The position numbers and the translations under genes are program-made. The notes under the pieces were generated by a model. It ran no database searches. It had not been told where the DNA came from and was given only the letters and a program-made list of their open reading frames with translations. 23,693 nucleotides of DNA from a virus. The DNA lies in IMG/VR virus record IMGVR_UViG_3300001979_000005, positions 1 to 23,693 of that record. One strand, written 5' to 3'. Below, piece after piece: positions 5,841 to 23,693 of the stretch (positions within the stretch are counted from its first letter, which is position 1; each line of letters starts with the position of its first letter).

Positions 5841-7495
5841 CAAGCAGCCTCCTTGGCGGGGTCCCTGTTTCCAACGGCTGCGGCCCCGAGGGGACCGCCG
5901 CCACCCTGCGACCGGCCAAAGGGATGGGGAACGCCCTCATCCTCAAACATCTTCTTTTCCCGCCCAAGCTGCACGATTTGCTCCTCGCCATTCTTGCCGG
6001 CGAGTGCGCATTCATCATGGTAGGTGGACAGGCCGGTTTCGAGCCTGATCTTTGCAGCCAGGGCGGCTTTGTAATCGTCGGCCGAGGGTGCGGCGGGACC
6101 GCTCCATTCTGTCTGGAAAACGCTTTCTCTGTCCCGACTGAAAGCCTCATATCCGCCCTTGAACGGGATGATCTTCCGAAAGATCATCTCATCAAGCCAG
6201 CGCTCGAATATGCCCTGCAAGAAGGGCGCTACGATGCGGGTGCGGCGACGCAACACAATCGGCCATATGCTGGCGACGGCCATTCGGACAGATGAATACG
6301 AGGCATTGGAATGGTCCATCGCCAACGCCTCGTAGGTGATGCCGAGGCAACGCGCGACTTCCTTCAAGAGATTTTGGAAGAACGGCAGATATTGCGATCC
6401 GGGCGTTGCCGCCGTGTGCATCTGGAATTCTTCGCCGGGGCCAAGATGATTGATGCGAGCGGAATCGGACATCGATATGCCCTTTTCCTTCAACGCGCCA
6501 ATACGATGGTCCCAAACATCAAGCAAATCTTGCTGCAACCCGCCGATGAACTCCGACCAATCCCCGTCAAAGCCGGCTGGAGCGTCTATGTCGTTCAACG
6601 TCTGTATCGCCTGAAACGCTGTTTCGCTTGGCTCGGGGCTTTTGATGGTCGCCGCGAAGATGGTCTGCATCAAAGCAGTCGCCAAGGTCGCATCCGCCAA
6701 CTGATCCGACTGCGCGATGACCTTCAATGCGGATGCAATGACCGAAATTCCACGCGGGCTATTCAGGTTCGCGGCGCGATCCATGACATGGATGACATCG
6801 GAAGCATCGATAGTCCGGTCCTGCTCGACGCCCGCCACCCGGACGCGAAAGCGATACGCGACTGCCCGGTTATCTTCATCGTGATAAATGCCCTGATCGA
6901 GTCCGACGCTTTCCTCTGTCCTGCGAGGGCAACGATGCGAGGCGATCAGAGATACCTTTGTGCCCGACTTCACGCCAAGGCGTCGCTGCTTTTCGAGCGG
7001 CAAATTATCGAGCAGGCCGAAAGCCTCGCCGGTCGCAAGGAAACTGAGTAAGGCCGCTTCCGCCATATCGGCAATGGTCGCCTTGCCAGCAAGATCGCAT
7101 TCCTTGGGGTTCCACGCCCAGCGCCGCCAAGCGCGCTCGACCCGGCGGCACCATGCCGTGGCCTGCTTTTTTGTGTAACCGAAAGGCTCAAGCTGCGCGA
7201 GACAGGCAAGTTTCAGCTCCTCACCGATGGTATCGGTGACGATCTGCTGAATAGCGCCCGATATCCAGCCGCTGTTCTGCATGAAATCGAAGGCCAACGC
7301 GGAAGCACGTTCAGCAGCTTCACGGACATCTATCCGTGCATCGCGCGTGACCGCTCGGCGCATGCTAAGCGTGCCGGCCCGATCACCCCGAAGATATCGC
7401 GCCGTCATTTTGCGGGATGGCGCGAGCTGCGGCGCGGGCGTCTCGACCCGCACCGAATTCGCCTTCACGCGCATGCGAGGTTTGCTTTCAATCAT
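5840..7495 (-). CDS. Portal protein, lambda gpB family
   Basis: This 551-residue protein is a lambda-type portal (Phage_portal_2; lambda gpB is 533). Family landmarks are AFDFMQNSGWISGAIQQIVTDTIG near the N-terminus, WCRRVERAWRRWAWNPKECDLAG, the VSLIASHRCPRR / DRTIDASDVIHVMD stretch, the NSPRGISVIASALKVIAQSDQLADA helix region, and PGSQYLPFFQNLLKEVARCLGITYEALAMD with SYSSVRMA. The portal is the dodecameric ring at one capsid vertex through which DNA is packed. The ATG at 7495 overlaps the terminase stop as ATGA; a TTG at 7510 is the only longer alternative. Confidence 0.92.
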   Translation of the reverse strand: MIESKPRMRVKANSVRVETPAPQLAPSRKMTARYLRGDRAGTLSMRRAVTRDARIDVREAAERASALAFDFMQNSGWISGAIQQIVTDTIGEELKLACLAQLEPFGYTKKQATAWCRRVERAWRRWAWNPKECDLAGKATIADMAEAALLSFLATGEAFGLLDNLPLEKQRRLGVKSGTKVSLIASHRCPRRTEESVGLDQGIYHDEDNRAVAYRFRVRVAGVEQDRTIDASDVIHVMDRAANLNSPRGISVIASALKVIAQSDQLADATLATALMQTIFAATIKSPEPSETAFQAIQTLNDIDAPAGFDGDWSEFIGGLQQDLLDVWDHRIGALKEKGISMSDSARINHLGPGEEFQMHTAATPGSQYLPFFQNLLKEVARCLGITYEALAMDHSNASYSSVRMAVASIWPIVLRRRTRIVAPFLQGIFERWLDEMIFRKIIPFKGGYEAFSRDRESVFQTEWSGPAAPSADDYKAALAAKIRLETGLSTYHDECALAGKNGEEQIVQLGREKKMFEDEGVPHPFGRSQGGGGPLGAAAVGNRDPAKEAA

Positions 7496-9603
7496 GAGTA
7501 CGACCCCCAACGCTTACGCTGACGTGGTTTTGCAGATGGTTGCGCTGGCTTTTGCTCTTGCTTGCCGAACGGACTAAGGTCAGCCAGGTCAAACAAATCG
7601 TTGGCCTGTTCCGGTTCGCCATGCAGTTCACGCAGCAGGTCGGCCCACCGGTCGAGCGTAAGCTTGCGCTTGTTTTGAAGATACCAGCCGAGGGCATAGG
7701 AATAGACGGTCGCGTCAAACCAGTCGTTCATGCGACCGTTGATCTTCTTCCATTTCCGTCCAGCTTTCGGGTTTACGAGCCGCTTCGACTTTCGCTTGAG
7801 GCTGGTACGGGCTTCCTCTTCCTCGTCCACCAAGCACTCGGCGGTAAGCTCTTTGGCAAAATCCTCGTCGCAGAGATCGCCCGCGAAATGGATCGTGCCG
7901 CGCGGCCACTGCCCGGTCTCGCTGGCACCTTGAACGAGATTGGCAAGCGCCGCCGTAACGGCAGTCTTCACATCGTAGAGACCAACGGGATAGAGTAAGA
8001 CCTTGGCAATGACCTTCTTGCGATGGTCTTTTACATCCTTCTTTACGGGCGTCCCTAACCAAGGCAAGCCGACCGGCTCGCGCCCATCGAGTGGAATGAC
8101 ATTCGGACGGCCAACGCAGAAGCGATAGACTCTGTCTGTGGACCACCCGGAATCGATGCCCGAAAGGTCGATTGATTTTTCGCGTCCGCCCGGCGTCGGA
8201 TAGCTTCGGTTCAAGGCGTCGGACAACTGTATCCACGGCTCATCGCTCTGATCTGGCGAGCCTTCGAAAATTTCCCGATCGATCAGGCAATATTGCTCGC
8301 GTGGGCCGATGGCATAGACAACCCACTTGATGCCGTATCCTTGAACGTCGGCAGCAGAAACAAGCAACGCTGCCCATTCGGGCACCATGCCGGTCGGCAC
8401 CATTTCGTCTCTTGCCGCCTTGACGATCTTTTCCCATTCGACCGTTGTGCTGCCGGGATCGTACGGCTCAGCCAAGTCCTGCTGATAGAAGGCTTTGAGC
8501 TTTGTTGTGTCGCCCTGCGCATCAATCCAGCGCTGCCAGATATCCGCCCATTTTTCCCGGACCGCGTAACCGGCCCACAAATGATAGCTCGGTTGCCAGT
8601 CGCGGCAGCGCCCCTCACAGGGCGGGCAAATCCACTCGCCAATTTCGTCTGCCGCAATCTCAAGCGGAACCGGCTTGTCGCCCTCGTGGACGCGGCGGGC
8701 AATCCAGTGCGCCCGCTCTTCCATCTCCCGCTTGTGACCGTCGAGGATTACACCATCGCAACGCGTGCATCGAACGTGAACCGGTAGCCCGCGTTCCTTG
8801 TCCGCACCGCGCATCATGTCGAAGGTGAGCGCCTGATAGGTGTCGCAATGTGGGCAAGGCATGTAACGGAAACGCTGGTCGCCGCCTTCGAAATCTTCCG
8901 AGATCGCACATTCGCCGGCTATGCCCGGCGTGGACCCCTGCCACTCTTTCGCGAGATCGCCGTACATCTTCTGGCGCGCGCGCGCCTGATCGCGAGGACT
9001 ACCGCGACCGTCCACGTCTTTCGGGTAGCCGGTCACCTCGTCCATGGCGAGATATTTGATGGACACCATCTGCAAACCCTTGGAAGAGCCTGCATTGACA
9101 ATTTGGCAAAAGCCGCCGGCATACCTTTTGAACGACGTTGTGCTGCCCTGCTCATCACGGCTGTTGACGGGCAAAACCTTGTGGGCGATGCGCTTCGAGG
9201 CTTCGATAGTCGGCTGTAGTTTGATGCGATTGAACTTCGTCGCCTCTTCGAGGGTCGGAAGCACGATCATCATCGATCCCGGCGCTTGATCCACGATGAA
9301 GCAAAACCAGTTTTCGATGGCAGTCGATTTTCCGAGCTGTGCCGCCCATCGGCAGGTGACGCGCCGAGCTGGATGATCGGGATGCAAGCAATCCTGCGGC
9401 TCGCGGAGATAGGGTACGCGGTCGGTGCGAAAATCGCCGGGCCAAGGCGAACCCGATTCCGGCGAAACCTTGCGGTGACGATCCGCAAACTCGCTGATCG
9501 TCAAGTCTTCCGCTGGACGGCTGGCTGCGGCCAAGCCCCCGAAAAGGACCGCCGCACCGTTCGCCAATTCCGGAAACCGCGCGCGAACATCGTGAAAGGT
9601 CAC
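7492..9603 (-). CDS. Terminase large subunit, lambda gpA family
   Basis: This 703-residue protein is the packaging motor and DNA-cutting enzyme. The ATPase has a Walker A-like RWAAQLGKST at residues 85-94 and a Walker B with acidic pair at 188-189 (IKYLAMDEV). A zinc finger characteristic of the GpA group is formed by C250, C253, C279 and C282 (CPHC ... CTRC). The nuclease half has the acidic strands LLVSAADVQGYG and LSGIDSGWSTDRVY. It starts at a GTG whose last base pair overlaps the small terminase stop (GTGA), so translation is coupled. GpA-type enzymes usually cut at cos sites, which makes the non-coding stretch 10227-10396 interesting. Confidence 0.93.
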   Translation of the reverse strand: MTFHDVRARFPELANGAAVLFGGLAAASRPAEDLTISEFADRHRKVSPESGSPWPGDFRTDRVPYLREPQDCLHPDHPARRVTCRWAAQLGKSTAIENWFCFIVDQAPGSMMIVLPTLEEATKFNRIKLQPTIEASKRIAHKVLPVNSRDEQGSTTSFKRYAGGFCQIVNAGSSKGLQMVSIKYLAMDEVTGYPKDVDGRGSPRDQARARQKMYGDLAKEWQGSTPGIAGECAISEDFEGGDQRFRYMPCPHCDTYQALTFDMMRGADKERGLPVHVRCTRCDGVILDGHKREMEERAHWIARRVHEGDKPVPLEIAADEIGEWICPPCEGRCRDWQPSYHLWAGYAVREKWADIWQRWIDAQGDTTKLKAFYQQDLAEPYDPGSTTVEWEKIVKAARDEMVPTGMVPEWAALLVSAADVQGYGIKWVVYAIGPREQYCLIDREIFEGSPDQSDEPWIQLSDALNRSYPTPGGREKSIDLSGIDSGWSTDRVYRFCVGRPNVIPLDGREPVGLPWLGTPVKKDVKDHRKKVIAKVLLYPVGLYDVKTAVTAALANLVQGASETGQWPRGTIHFAGDLCDEDFAKELTAECLVDEEEEARTSLKRKSKRLVNPKAGRKWKKINGRMNDWFDATVYSYALGWYLQNKRKLTLDRWADLLRELHGEPEQANDLFDLADLSPFGKQEQKPAQPSAKPRQRKRWGSYS

Positions 9604-14040: not shown

Positions 14041-14585
14041 TGGCCCCTGCCCTGTTTCCACACCTCGAAATCCGCGCGCAGGTCTAGAAAGGCCATCTGT
14101 GCACGCGCTTCGGTGTTGATCTGTCTTTTGCTGGAAATGCCGAGGAGCTTTTTCAGCACGGTATCGGCATGGTCTTTGTTGTGGATTGCCCGGCTGCTGT
14201 CCCGACGTTCAAGAAAGCGATGGAACGGCTTTTCGGCGCAGAGCATTGCCGCATTCGCCGCGAAATCGCCGTCGCGCGACTGGCGCGGTACTTCCCTTTG
14301 AGGCTGGCTTTGCCGCAACGCGACGACTGCACGGCGACGAAGCTCTAAAAACAGCACCACGTTTTCAAGTGCGCCGCTGATAAGCTCGATATCCTCGGGA
14401 AGGGCATCGGCGTGCATCGTGCAAAGCACAGCTTGCTCACCTGTCGCGCGCCGTACAACGATGCGTGTCATCCCGCCATCGGTGTCGATGGACCATCGGT
14501 CGCCTTGGCAAAGGTCCGCGATACCGGCCAATCTGGAAACGCGCGCCTTCTCGCGTTCGCGTGCGGCTTGGGCTGGCGTCGTCAT
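14037..14585 (-). CDS. Phage protein of unknown function
   Basis: The ATG at 14585 overlaps the methyltransferase stop as ATGA and gives 182 residues; the longer frame to 14639 lies inside the methyltransferase gene and is not needed. The N-terminus is basic and helical (AAREREKARVSRLAGIADLC). A small beta unit follows (DRWSIDTDGGMTRIVVRRATGEQAVLCTM), then a leucine-rich helix (ISGALENVVLFLELRRRAVVALR) and a basic C-terminus. I do not recognise the family. The beta unit followed by long helices suggests a compact adaptor rather than an enzyme. Expression is supported by tight coupling on both sides. Confidence 0.65.
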   Translation of the reverse strand: MTTPAQAAREREKARVSRLAGIADLCQGDRWSIDTDGGMTRIVVRRATGEQAVLCTMHADALPEDIELISGALENVVLFLELRRRAVVALRQSQPQREVPRQSRDGDFAANAAMLCAEKPFHRFLERRDSSRAIHNKDHADTVLKKLLGISSKRQINTEARAQMAFLDLRADFEVWKQGRGQ

Positions 14586-15988
14586 GCCGCCTCGCTTTCC
14601 GCCGTCTGCGCAGCTTCGGCAGGCATATAGTCTTGCCAATCAATGCGCCGCGTCGGTATCCACTTATCTTTGTCGCCGTAGGTGCCGTCTTCCTGTAGCT
14701 CCCATACGAACCAGCCGGTATTCATGCGACTACTGGCCTTTTCGCCGTCCCATCCGTCGCGGTGCATCATCGGAAGGCGATGCTTGAAAATGTAGACGCG
14801 GGACGGCGGGCAATCGTCCATGGCGAAATTGCGGTCATCGTCCGCAAAGCCGCACAGGAAATTGAGGTTAAGCAGCAACGCCATCTTGCGCGGGCGGAAA
14901 ACTCGCAGCGCATGGGCGACGAAAGCGTTCAAAACATCGCCGTAGGGCGGATTCGTCACGATGTCGTAAGACCCGCATTCCGGCGGATGCGAAGTTAGGA
15001 AGTCTTGCACCGCCTGCAATTCGCCATGCTGGTCCGCCGTGCCGTAGTCGATCAAATCGGCAAGAACCACGCTATAGCCAGCACGCTCAAGCATCCGGGT
15101 AATCGCGCCGCGCCCGCAGGCAGGCTCAAGAACCGTGGCGGAAAAGGTTTCGAGAGCGAGAAGCGTATGCATTGCTTCCGGCGGAGTTTCATAAAGGTTC
15201 TGTCCACGCGCCTCTTTCGTAGCGCTCGCCGTGCCCACCGCCGCCCGAAGATTGGCGCGCGTCGGCCCAAGCCCGGCAGAAAGCCGCGCCTGAATTGCGC
15301 GCTCGACAATGCCCGGCTCGCGATGTTCCGCCGCCGCCAGCTTGCGCGCCTCGTGGATTTCCTTGCGGGATAGGCCGGTTTCCTCCGATGTAAAACCGTT
15401 TCCATCGGAAACGGTTTTGGGCCGACCGCCTTTCGACGCCTTACCCGCCGCCTGCGCCTCATCCCATTTGTCAGCAATCAGGATTTTCGCGCGGGCTTCG
15501 ATCAGAAGCGCGTCGGCCTGCATCCGCCGCGCCTTGGCGATCAGCTTTTCCGTCGCGCCGATCTGTTCGGCGAATTGTGCCGCCGTCTTGGCCGTGGCAT
15601 ATGCAACCGAGGCGACGATACGCGCGTTGACGATATCGCCCTCGTCCAGTAGCGCCCGCGCCCGCTCGACAGTTGCGACCAGCCCGGAGGCGTCGGCAGT
15701 AGGCAGGATATCCGGCAAATTTTGAGGGATATCCGCAGAAGCGGGCAAGTCGCCTGGTTCCGCTATGCCTTGCAGCATCGCCAGCACTTCGCGGGCGCGC
15801 TCGGTCGGATAGTAGGTTTTCGCGTCTTGCTTGTCGCGTTTCAGATAGCCGTTACCAACGGCATTGTTTGCCGCCGTCACATGTCTTGGCTCTGTTGCCT
15901 TCACGACGCCTTCGCTAACCGCTGTCGTGATCAGCGCTAGCGCGTTCGGGCCGGGCTTGGGGAGTTTTACAGATTGATAGACGGGCAT
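14582..15988 (-). CDS. DNA adenine-type methyltransferase with N-terminal regulatory region
   Basis: The ATG at 15988 overlaps the previous stop as ATGA and gives 468 residues. The C-terminal third is a Rossmann methyltransferase: motif I EPACGRG at residues 288-294, and the catalytic NPPY at 346-349 typical of N6-adenine enzymes, with YETPPEA ahead of motif I. The N-terminal 260 residues are not methyltransferase: they hold helices (VERARALLDEGDIVNARIVASVAYATAKTAA) and an HTH-like run (SEETGLSRKEIHEARKLAAA). No restriction gene is nearby, so it is an orphan enzyme. It may protect phage DNA or mark regulatory sites; the N-terminal region suggests targeting or control. The target sequence cannot be read from the gene. 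Confidence 0.82.
   Translation of the reverse strand: MPVYQSVKLPKPGPNALALITTAVSEGVVKATEPRHVTAANNAVGNGYLKRDKQDAKTYYPTERAREVLAMLQGIAEPGDLPASADIPQNLPDILPTADASGLVATVERARALLDEGDIVNARIVASVAYATAKTAAQFAEQIGATEKLIAKARRMQADALLIEARAKILIADKWDEAQAAGKASKGGRPKTVSDGNGFTSEETGLSRKEIHEARKLAAAEHREPGIVERAIQARLSAGLGPTRANLRAAVGTASATKEARGQNLYETPPEAMHTLLALETFSATVLEPACGRGAITRMLERAGYSVVLADLIDYGTADQHGELQAVQDFLTSHPPECGSYDIVTNPPYGDVLNAFVAHALRVFRPRKMALLLNLNFLCGFADDDRNFAMDDCPPSRVYIFKHRLPMMHRDGWDGEKASSRMNTGWFVWELQEDGTYGDKDKWIPTRRIDWQDYMPAEAAQTAESEAA
15392..15418 (-). repeat. Perfect 12-bp inverted repeat inside the methyltransferase gene
   Basis: AAAACCGTTTCC (15392-15403) and GGAAACGGTTTT (15407-15418) pair perfectly across a 3-nt loop. 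On the minus-strand mRNA the stem ends in UUUU, giving terminator-like form inside the ORF at residues about 191-199. Confidence 0.75.
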
Positions 15989-16236
15989 CAGTTCGCCCTC
16001 ATCAATCGGTTGAGGTAGGCTTGCCCGAGGCCGGTCAGCTTGGCAGTGCGGTCGTCTGCACAGATATGCAGATAACCACAGCGGCGGCATTCCAGCGCAA
16101 GTTGGCGACGGCCAAGTCCGGTTGCGATTTCGACGCGTCCGCCGGCAAACTGCACTTCACGCAGAAAACCCCTTGCTCGTTCGGACAAGGGGCGGGACAT
16201 CAGCTCATCAATGGCGTGATCGGTTTGCGGCTTCAT
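15988..16236 (-). CDS. Small winged-helix-like phage protein
   Basis: This 82-residue protein has an N-terminal helix pair (AIDELMSRPLSERARGFLREVQ), a segment like a recognition helix (ATGLGRRQLALECRRCGYLHIC, with C-x-x-C), and then the DDRTAKLTGLGQAYLNRL ending seen in winged-helix DNA-binding proteins, where the last strands and helix form the wing. The ATG at 16236 and the stop at 15988 both overlap neighbouring genes as ATGA. The start is preceded by coding DNA of the CII-like gene, so translation is likely coupled. DNA binding is an inference from the pattern; no specific family is claimed. Confidence 0.65.
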   Translation of the reverse strand: MKPQTDHAIDELMSRPLSERARGFLREVQFAGGRVEIATGLGRRQLALECRRCGYLHICADDRTAKLTGLGQAYLNRLMRAN

Positions 16237-20961: not shown

Positions 20962-21222
20962 ATGATCACCATCGAACCTACAACCGTCAATCCGATGCCT
21001 CTGCAGCGCCCGCGTCTGCGTCGCAGCGATGTGCCGAATTATCTCGCCTCTAAGCACGGCATCGACATTGCGGTCTCTACACTCGCCAAGATGGCAACTG
21101 TTGGCGGCGGGCCGGCCATGCAGTATAGCGGTCGCATTCCTCTTTACCACCTTCAGGACTTGGATAATTGGGCCGAAGAGCGCCTTTCGAAGGCCGTCCG
21201 CTCAACCTCGGAGCGAGGTTGA
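20962..21222 (+). CDS. AlpA/excisionase-like DNA-binding protein
   Basis: The ATG at 20962 is preceded by AAAGGAAAA and gives 86 residues. The core RRSDVPNYLASKHGIDIAVSTLAKMATVGGGPAMQYSGRIPLYHLQDLDNWAEERLS is a MerR/AlpA-type winged helix in which the second helix is followed by a G-rich turn and Y...DLDNWA end, the usual pattern of phage excisionases and AlpA regulators. The last codons form part of the terminator stem. It is the last gene of the rightward operon and the nearest DNA-binding gene to the integrase, which makes an excisionase role plausible. A transcription regulator is the alternative. Confidence 0.62.
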   Translation: MITIEPTTVNPMPLQRPRLRRSDVPNYLASKHGIDIAVSTLAKMATVGGGPAMQYSGRIPLYHLQDLDNWAEERLSKAVRSTSERG

Positions 21223-21226
21223 GCGG
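21198..21226 (+). terminator. 13-bp-stem hairpin ending the rightward operon
   Basis: CCGCTCAACCTCG (21198-21210) and CGAGGTTGAGCGG (21214-21226) pair perfectly over a GAG loop. The stop codon of the AlpA-like gene lies inside the second arm. There is no T-run, only CCCAAAAC. Confidence 0.65.
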
Positions 21227-21298
21227 GGCCCAAAACTAAGTCAGATGGCACTAGCTTCCGCAAAATATTTCTGGTTTTTCCCGAAGATCTAAGTGTAG

Positions 21299-22024
21299 AT
21301 GGCTGGAACTGATTATATTGCGAAGTTTAGGGCTATGAACGTGTCGGATGAGCTTTCCAGGATCGAGAAAAAAGTTGAAGGACTAGCAGACGCAGAAATT
21401 GCGACAACCTGCCAACCATATCTGCTTAGCAAGCTAGGCAAGGATCTCGGCGCCGACCTCAAAATCATCAAGCAAGAAGCGAAAAGCCTCGCTGATTTCA
21501 TAAAGAGTAGGTTTCCCGATAAATACGAAATAATAATCACTGGCGATTACAAGAATATTCAGTCCATAATTTTAAAGAACGCTAGGGATGTTGCTTACAA
21601 AGCGACCGAAGAAAAAGAAGAGGAGAAGAAGACAGAACGATTTAATTATCGTTTTTGGGCAGCATTCTCTGTACCATTAGAAGGCGACTCGCGCTTCTTG
21701 AACATTGAGAACTTTACATTTGAAGATACTCAGTCTTCGCCATCGAGTTCCCACGAGCTTATTGAGCCTGAGTATATTGCACCGACGGATATAAAGGAAC
21801 GCGATAAGGCAATCGCTCAAAACATTCATCGCTGGATTGAGCAAAGAGGCTTTAAGACTGAACAGTTCTTGGCAAGGCCTCATTTTGGCAGGAGTGCCAG
21901 CGCCTCCGGTGGACAAGCCCGGACGCTGCTGCACGCTGTCATAGAGACGCTGGACAAGAAACAGTTATCCTCTGTCTCTTTGCCTTTGGACGTCGTCGCT
22001 ACCTTGCTTAATAAAAGTGTTTGA
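21299..22024 (+). CDS. Unknown protein, first gene of a two-gene accessory cassette
   Basis: This 241-residue protein is not one I recognise. The N-terminal 80 residues are helical and charged (LSRIEKKVEGLADAEIATTCQPYLLSKLGKDLGADLKIIKQEAKSLADFIKSRF). A highly charged stretch (EEKEEEKKTE) follows at about 102-111, then a beta-rich segment (FNYRFWAAFSVPLEGDSRFLNIENFTFED) and a C-terminal helical domain with GRSASASGGQARTLLHAVIETL. The DNA is clearly more AT-rich than the rest (two lines I counted were 47% and 35% GC against about 60% elsewhere). The ATG at 21299 has only a weak ribosome site; an ATG at 21335 has AGGG very close to it. It ends 23 bases before its partner gene. Confidence 0.6.
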   Translation: MAGTDYIAKFRAMNVSDELSRIEKKVEGLADAEIATTCQPYLLSKLGKDLGADLKIIKQEAKSLADFIKSRFPDKYEIIITGDYKNIQSIILKNARDVAYKATEEKEEEKKTERFNYRFWAAFSVPLEGDSRFLNIENFTFEDTQSSPSSSHELIEPEYIAPTDIKERDKAIAQNIHRWIEQRGFKTEQFLARPHFGRSASASGGQARTLLHAVIETLDKKQLSSVSLPLDVVATLLNKSV

Positions 22025-22047
22025 TGGGCTAGGTGCTAGAGCGAGCA

Positions 22048-22926
22048 ATGACAGAATATTCTCTTGTCATCGCGGGCCTGCCGGTCCCATTTTTTGATCG
22101 ACTTCGGAAGGAAGCCGAAAACAGAATCGCTCCGGGTGGAAAGCTCTTTGTAACCCCAACCGCGTGGTCAAATGGCTACGACCCTAAGCACGCGGATCAT
22201 CTCTTGAAACAAGTTTATGAGCATTGCTTAGGGAAGCCCGAGAAAGATCCCGTTGTAACGCTGCTGCTGTATGTCGATTACGGCGATAAGAGCACAGCCA
22301 GCCTTTTAGAAAAATTCTTCCCTTTCGCACTCCCCCGACGACTGGTTTTGCCCGACCTAGAAGCCGCGCGGAACAAGCCGGAACGCAACAAATTACTGAA
22401 CGACTTTGCGATTGAGATTATTCAGGCAAGCAGAAGCGTGAGGGCGACATCGAATGTAATTTCCCACCGAACTAATGTTCGCAACCTCAATCCTCTACTG
22501 CTGCCGGTCCGCAATTTCGGTAGCGACAATCTGACGCAACTTCTCCGAAAGATATATGGCGAAGCAGCCCACAGCGAAGATCCGGACAAGTTGGTTGGCG
22601 AAGAGATAGATAGGTTTCTGTCCAAGCACCCTTGGGCAACACCGCCTGATGCGAAGAAACACGCGCTGTCTGACGGAGTTCTTTATTTCAAAAGTCCAGG
22701 CAACGACCGCCACGGGTATTTGAGGAACAGCGTCGCAAAAAGTCACCCGATCGATTGCTTGCTGAATGCTAGAAGCCGTCTCGGCGGAGCGTATGACTAT
22801 TGCCTTCATTATGACTGCACACCGGTCAAAGGAAAGCTGAAGTCAGCCTATGAAAACTGCCATGGCCACGACAGCCCGCCGAAAAAAACACACGTGAACA
22901 TCGCACCCAACGATTTTATTATTTAA
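22048..22926 (+). CDS. Unknown protein with C-terminal Cys/His region, second cassette gene
   Basis: The ATG at 22048, with AGAGCGAG upstream, gives 292 residues; a GTG at 22033 is the alternative. I do not recognise the family. The central part has alternating helices and short strands (VVTLLLYVDYGDKSTASLLEKFFPFALPRRLVLPDLE), and the C-terminal 60 residues are rich in possible ligands: C-L-H-Y-D-C, then N-C-H-G-H-D, then THVNIAPNDFII. This could be a metal-binding or nuclease-like site. Like its partner it has foreign, AT-richer composition. It is followed by two hairpin terminators, so the pair is a closed transcription unit. Confidence 0.6.
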   Translation: MTEYSLVIAGLPVPFFDRLRKEAENRIAPGGKLFVTPTAWSNGYDPKHADHLLKQVYEHCLGKPEKDPVVTLLLYVDYGDKSTASLLEKFFPFALPRRLVLPDLEAARNKPERNKLLNDFAIEIIQASRSVRATSNVISHRTNVRNLNPLLLPVRNFGSDNLTQLLRKIYGEAAHSEDPDKLVGEEIDRFLSKHPWATPPDAKKHALSDGVLYFKSPGNDRHGYLRNSVAKSHPIDCLLNARSRLGGAYDYCLHYDCTPVKGKLKSAYENCHGHDSPPKKTHVNIAPNDFII

Positions 22927-22940
22927 GATCAATAAGAAAA

Positions 22941-22969
22941 GGCCGATGTCGCTATTAGCGCCATCGGCC
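22941..22969 (+). terminator. Terminator of the two-gene cassette
   Basis: GGCCGATG (22941-22948) pairs with CATCGGCC (22962-22969), extended internally by GCT/AGC. AAGAAAA precedes it and CTGCTTT follows, so it could act in both directions. Confidence 0.7.
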
Positions 22970-22980
22970 CTGCTTTGAAA

Positions 22981-23015
22981 CGGGTCGCGTGAAAGCGCGA
23001 TACCCGCATATTTTT
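22981..23015 (+). terminator. Second, tandem terminator
   Basis: CGGGT-CGCG (22981-22989) pairs with CGCG-ACCCG (22996-23006), with AT bulged out, and is followed by CATATTTTTGC. This has the usual form of an intrinsic terminator. Confidence 0.65.
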
Positions 23016-23460: not shown

Positions 23461-23693
23461 CTACTCCTGAGTGTCTGTCATCATCATTCTAAGCACCTCA
23501 CCGGAAACTTTGTTCGCCGCCGCGATCAGGACGCTGTCAAGATGGTGGACATATCGTTGCGTGACGTTGCCCGCCGCATGCCCCAAAAGCGCAGAAATAG
23601 TGATCTCGGTAAATCCGAGATCACCCGCCACACTGGCATACGAATGCCGTAGCGTATGCGAAGTGACGCCTTCTAGCCCCGCTCTTTCCGTCA
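23461..23693 (-). CDS. int: Tyrosine integrase, C-terminal part (5' end outside window)
   Basis: Only the last 76 residues are present. They hold the end of the catalytic domain: HTLRHSYAS (the His and Arg of box II), LLGH (the second His), and NVTQRYVHH with the nucleophile Tyr. After it comes a helix (VLIAAANKVSGEVLRMM) and a TAG at 23461. This is a phage-type integrase that would integrate and excise the prophage by recombination between att sites. It is on the minus strand, convergent with the cassette, and its beginning lies to the right of the window, so the prophage end is expected near there. The catalytic residues make the family call firm. Confidence 0.9.
   Translation of the reverse strand, partial: TERAGLEGVTSHTLRHSYASVAGDLGFTEITISALLGHAAGNVTQRYVHHLDSVLIAAANKVSGEVLRMMMTDTQE

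Follow-up and report, generated by a model that had tools for sequence, protein, structure and literature searches.

A mobile two-gene module beside a phage integrase gene, with a predicted LOTUS-like protein and a probable role in defence

Closest described systems and the phage cassette

LOTUS (OST-HTH) domains are known from Oskar, TDRD5/7 and Tejas and, in bacteria, from proteins of family PF12872; their hallmark is a helical insert, with a Ghxph motif, between helices 2 and 3 (PMC2848206). Almost all described bacterial OST-HTH domains are fused to an LK-nuclease (PMC2848206), and OST-HTH is also described for predicted immune effector modules, in a different arrangement (PMC8195603). Here we describe a gene pair, P1 and P2, whose first product is likewise a predicted winged helix with an inserted helix, for which LOTUS domains gave the best structural matches and bacterial OST-HTH domains an in-register profile alignment. 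P1 differs from these proteins in having no Pfam match, a Ghxph motif that is only partly kept, a tail of its own and a separate partner, P2, and it lacks the nuclease fusion of the bacterial LK-nuclease proteins. With two-gene defence and toxin-antitoxin modules the pair shares tight coupling, the smaller gene in first place, mobility and a position beside other defence systems, although neither P1 nor P2 falls into a PADLOC, NCBIfam or Pfam family. It likewise resembles type II toxin-antitoxin systems as coupled small genes on mobile elements, whereas P2 matched no known toxin family, although it may belong to a new one. No description of the pair was found in the open-access literature, which was searched by accession and by domain.

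The window, the whole stretch of DNA that was analyzed, is a 23.7-kb virus record with genes for terminase, portal, head protease, replication, a DNA methyltransferase, a repressor and an integrase, a content from which we take it to be part of a temperate phage. The methyltransferase (14582-16090, minus strand, PHROG 799) is the phage's own and possibly an anti-restriction gene. The features of the P1-P2 cassette are given in Table 1. Homologues place the start of P2 at an ATG downstream of the first start codon of its open reading frame, and the gap after the P1 stop codon is therefore 23 nt. A preliminary description, made from the letters of the window, had reported two same-strand genes at this spacing, a GC content lower than in the rest of the window and tandem terminators at the end of the cassette, and all three observations were borne out. 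The cassette has 48.2% GC (P1 45.0%, P2 50.6%) against 58.5% for positions 1-21000, where the lowest stretch of equal length (1628 bp) has 53.4% (mean 58.5%, S.D. 1.8%). Both terminator-like hairpins 3' of P2 were absent from the list of a simple terminator scan, an omission that its rules on loops and tails probably explain. The proposed placement between an early operon terminator and the integrase was only partly right: the 3' part of an integrase gene does adjoin the cassette, but the hairpin on the 5' side has no T-run. That hairpin (21192-21230, 13-bp stem, z -3.9) is very stable and overlaps the end of the small gene preceding P1.

Table 1. Positions of the cassette and its predicted features in the window
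Feature	Position	Strand	Basis
P1 gene	21299..22024	+	ORF, 241 aa, long form; homologues 5' of P2 at all intact loci
P1 LOTUS-like winged helix (predicted), residues ~14-95	21338..21583	+	VIA-align and profile match to bacterial OST-HTH
P1 conserved C-terminal tail, residues 209-238 (LLHAVIETLDKKQLSSVSLPLDVVATLLNK)	21923..22012	+	Kept in 19/19 aligned P1
P2 gene	22048..22926	+	292 aa from homology-supported ATG; ORF opens with GTG at 22033
P2 N-terminal Rossmann-like domain (predicted), residues 1-142	22048..22473	+	Predicted model, pLDDT mostly above 80
P2 LP..NF motif, residues 152-157	22501..22518	+	Pro153 22/22, Asn156 20/22, Phe157 21/22
P2 C-terminal domain, residues 210-292	22675..22923	+	Conservation over 22 sequences
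Terminator-like hairpin 1	22941..22969	+	-20.5 kcal/mol, z -3.9
Terminator-like hairpin 2 with T-run	22982..23015	+	Stem 22982-23005, -15.9 kcal/mol, z -2.4, then CATATTTTTG
Phage integrase, 3' part	23461..23691	-	PHROG 216/1, E 2e-11; runs off window

In line with the preliminary description, neither protein matched a named family: for P1, P2 and the relatives scanned, all matches in Pfam, NCBIfam, PADLOC and PHROGs stayed at chance level. In PADLOC-DB 2.0.0, P1 and P2 had 0 matches at E values up to 1, and 21 relatives of P2 gave isolated chance-level matches only. Sequence searches of the PDB also returned chance matches only, and no Pfam nuclease domain, including LK-nuclease and DUF88/NYN, was matched in P1 or P2. 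P1 and P2 are nevertheless more than chance open reading frames, since homologous pairs at 15-70% identity are present in many genomes.

Linkage and distribution of the pair

We aligned 22 P1-P2 pairs, with identities down to ~15%, from prophages, chromosomes and plasmids of 4.6 kb upwards. In every intact locus P1 (~130-290 aa across the family) lies directly 5' of P2 (~260-330 aa) on the same strand, at a distance of -4 to +23 nt. The identity matrices of the two proteins over the 22 pairs are strongly correlated (Mantel r 0.91; 0/5000 permutations), and the correlation is 0.62 with only those pairs whose P2 proteins share less than 40% identity. Plasmid searches starting from an Acinetobacter P1 and from the P2 of that subfamily yielded an identical set of 12 records. 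Among 398 Pseudomonadota genomes a P1 match was found in 8, and P2 adjoins it in five of these; of the others, two are truncated at contig ends and one (G687) has the halves on separate contigs, which seem to break within the module. A search for solitary P1 genes gave no clear case, the two uncertain ones (L071, L072) being cut by contig ends. An independent check of the family came from two very distant pairs (L074, L075) found through the tail of P1 alone, where the next gene ends in FHYD[VI]...HLNLD, the pattern of P2. These data establish P1 and P2 as a real, diverged and always-paired module, in agreement with the earlier suggestion that protein 1 may be the partner of protein 2.

Several copies have decayed. 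In Rhizobium sp. G21 (L013, about 7222-8870) disruptions affect P1 as well as P2, and in two further loci (L024 1495-1848 and L064 5818-6186) only the C-terminal domain of P2 is left. A Synechocystis record has an intact P2 with a frameshifted P1, for which a sequencing error is possible.

Relatives of the pair occur on IMG/VR contigs (L005-L011, L065-L067), in Niveispirillum and Rhizobium (L012, L013) and further Pseudomonadota genomes, and on plasmids of Klebsiella, Enterobacter, E. coli, Aeromonas, Acinetobacter, Komagataeibacter, Sphingobium and Synechocystis. Some of the plasmids are conjugative; on 4.6-kb and 8-kb plasmids and in unrelated prophages the pair is found without other defence genes. 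Its occurrence is sporadic, in ~1% of the sampled Pseudomonadota genomes, and in E. coli two subfamilies were detected in 2/5426 and 5/5426 genomes, always on plasmids. One plasmid-borne E. coli pair has the accessions WP_001280081/WP_000581111. This sporadic and mobile occurrence is the distribution of a conflict system. The place beside the integrase gene and the several prophage copies would also fit a pair that serves the phage, in lysogeny regulation, host takeover or lysogenic conversion rather than immunity. We regard such a role as improbable: the pair is also carried by small and conjugative plasmids and lies in chromosomal Hma loci, and these plasmid and chromosomal copies make a purely phage-serving function unlikely. 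Moreover, three P2 queries had no match among 50,697 phage records. Scans of viral sequences that started from P1, or from the P2 most distant from the others, found nothing.

Predicted architecture of P1 and P2

The predicted model of P1 (mean pLDDT 75.7) has a long helix, three short helices and a beta wing over residues 3-92. When it was compared with 999 chains using VIA-align, LOTUS domains came out on top (TDRD5, Z 8.5; Tejas, 7.1; Oskar, 7.0), the alignment to TDRD5 covering 75 residues at 2.8 Å. Plain Foldseek instead put MarR regulators first, with weak E-values. Because winged helices commonly give middling Z scores with many unrelated proteins, we compared sequence profiles as well. 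A profile of 24 P1 N-termini aligned end to end and in register with one of 25 bacterial OST-HTH domains (E 0.0086), and 0/150 column shuffles scored as well. Only this diverse set passed; with the short P1 proteins by themselves, 63/200 shuffles were as good. In the model, the helical insert between helices 2 and 3 appears to be present, with helices at 43-50, 53-60 and 64-71 followed by wing strands at 76-81 and 87-92. The Ghxph motif reads GFVNI in one relative (L026), its glycine is retained in several others, and it is absent from the P1 of the window (QEAKSL). The Pfam OST-HTH profile (PF12872) gave no match to P1 at E values up to 10. Given this lack of a match and the partly kept motif, we file P1 as LOTUS-like and not as a member of the family. 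We infer from the model that the N-terminus of P1 is a LOTUS-like winged helix, which refines its earlier description as a charged helical segment. A SWIRM match (E 0.02, below the cut-off) was dropped, as it lies beyond the winged helix, at residues 131-185, and was obtained for one of nine members.

The Foldseek ranking, and the fact that winged helices are common, would be expected if P1 were an ordinary DNA-binding regulator of the MarR type that controls a metabolic or housekeeping enzyme, P2. In the VIA-align comparison, however, MarR proteins scored near 6, below the LOTUS domains, and the in-register profile match beat all 150 shuffles. A housekeeping role also sits poorly with a pair that is so rare and, in E. 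coli, confined to plasmids, and we think this explanation very unlikely.

Two forms of P1 exist. Short proteins consist of the winged-helix domain, a linker and the tail, and long ones, such as that of the window, have a middle region of ~100 residues between the winged helix and the linker. In the model a stretch with pLDDT below 50 precedes the tail. The two pairs found through the tail (L074 1489-2352, minus strand, and L075 400-1269, plus strand) have P1 proteins of ~290 aa that clearly share only this segment with the others, and the tail is therefore the most widely conserved part of P1. We would guess that this hydrophobic tail is a putative P2-docking segment.

P2 has a predicted Rossmann-like N-terminal domain; its structural matches to lumazine synthase, ribose-binding protein and arsenate reductase are generic Rossmann-like ones only and were set aside. 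Conservation is concentrated in the LP..NF motif and the C-terminal domain, where the residues listed are His222, His233, Cys237, Arg244, His254-x-Asp256, Cys271, His272 and Asn284. Over 22 sequences His254 and Asn284 are invariant (22/22), His222 is kept in 21, Arg244 and Cys271 in 20 and Cys237 in 19, with Asp or Asn at position 256. The C-terminal region had been proposed as a Cys/His-rich active or metal site. It is indeed the most conserved part of P2; the metal site remains unproven, since Cys257 (8/22) and some of the histidines are not conserved, and we rejected a site made of all the Cys and His residues, the constant ones being His254, Asn284, Cys271 and Arg244. The conserved His/Cys/Arg/Asn pattern, as read from the alignment, fits a putative active site. 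Among L011, L027 and L054, the members without His272 have lost His282 together with it, which suggests a possible contact or shared ligand. In the structure prediction, the C-terminal domain has a pLDDT of ~30 and no predicted fold; residues 196-292 have no model, and we claim no fold for the C-terminal domain. A BFVD search with P2 gave nothing convincing.

Defence neighbours and proposed function

Known defence genes beside the pair were identified with PADLOC. One locus (L077) has HmaA-HmaB-HmaC of the Hma system (helicase-methylase-ATPase, DUF499-centred and BREX-related) 5' of the pair on the same strand; P1, from its homology-supported start, follows HmaC by ~150 nt and overlaps P2 by 4 nt. 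In another (L079) HmaC lies ~3 kb from the pair, which is usually present without Hma; the main text of a 2026 survey of Hma systems mentions neither LOTUS nor OST-HTH (PMC12839542). An E. coli plasmid (NZ_CP019904.1; L003 5114-11968) carries the pair together with full-length GajA and GajB of Gabija, with an IS110 between them. Neither P1 nor P2 is a Gabija protein, and elsewhere the pair occurs without Gabija. On two Acinetobacter baumannii plasmids (L062 4323-6409, L083 2720-4806) a ThsB-like TIR gene lies directly 5' of the pair, and AbiEi and AbiEii are near it in L027. This company, which fits the idea of defence cargo in the preliminary description, points to a role in defence; as elements of this kind often carry defence genes, it is an association and not a proof.

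We give an even chance to the proposal that the two genes of the cassette form a mobile conflict module, most likely anti-phage or anti-mobile-element defence cargo, with P1 as adaptor and P2 as effector. P1 would be a nucleic-acid-binding adaptor whose LOTUS-like winged helix probably serves for RNA and which would bind P2 through its tail. P2 would be the effector, most likely an RNA- or nucleotide-directed enzyme, with its Rossmann-like N-terminus and compact C-terminal domain. P1 would hold or position P2 until foreign or structured RNA bound by P1, or another infection signal, releases or targets the activity of P2, which would then stop the infection or the cell. The trigger, the docking of the tail and the chemistry of P2 are guesses in this scheme. 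A more specific version, which we offer as tentative and rather doubtful, is that P1, LOTUS-like and with a fold like that of the domains in Oskar and TDRD5, proteins of animal germ granules, detects foreign or structured RNA in a bacterial immune system not described before, where it would control a separate effector whose catalytic domain is new.

The anatomy of the cassette would be explained nearly as well by a type II-like toxin-antitoxin system that stabilizes mobile elements, with P1 as antitoxin and autorepressor and P2 as toxin: the smaller gene comes first, coupling is tight (-4 to +23 nt), the pair sits on plasmids of 4.6 to 10 kb, and P1 has a predicted winged helix and a conserved tail. 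P2, however, is large for such a toxin (265-328 aa, two domains) and has no toxin-family match, the Synechocystis record, sequencing error aside, combines an intact P2 with a frameshifted P1, and the neighbours are defence systems. We consider this system possible although not likely, and prefer defence on account of the defence-system company and the size of P2; the two readings overlap if infection releases the toxin.

The pair is an undescribed mobile module whose role is probably defence. Were it a defence system, it would be one missed by Pfam, NCBIfam, PADLOC and PHROGs, and one carried, beside Gabija or TIR genes, by clinical plasmids of Klebsiella, Enterobacter, E. coli and Acinetobacter; the 4.6-kb plasmids, such as that of Klebsiella in L059, make it easy to test. 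If the proposal is true, bacterial LOTUS-like domains would have a role beyond the LK-nuclease proteins, germline RNA-silencing factors would have a possible parallel in bacteria, and P2 would define an unclassified His/Cys/Asn domain.

Some further features of the neighbourhoods were observed. The pair and complete Gabija form one defence block on conjugative plasmids, and the same cassette occurs on Klebsiella and Enterobacter plasmids as well as that of E. coli. The ThsB-like TIR gene of the two A. baumannii plasmids has no obvious ThsA beside it, and these small plasmids also carry tet(39). Toxin-antitoxin genes of the BrnTA, VapBC and YafQ types lie within a few kb of the pair on several plasmids (L063 5611-6199, L083 5209-5831 and L060 11431-11679).
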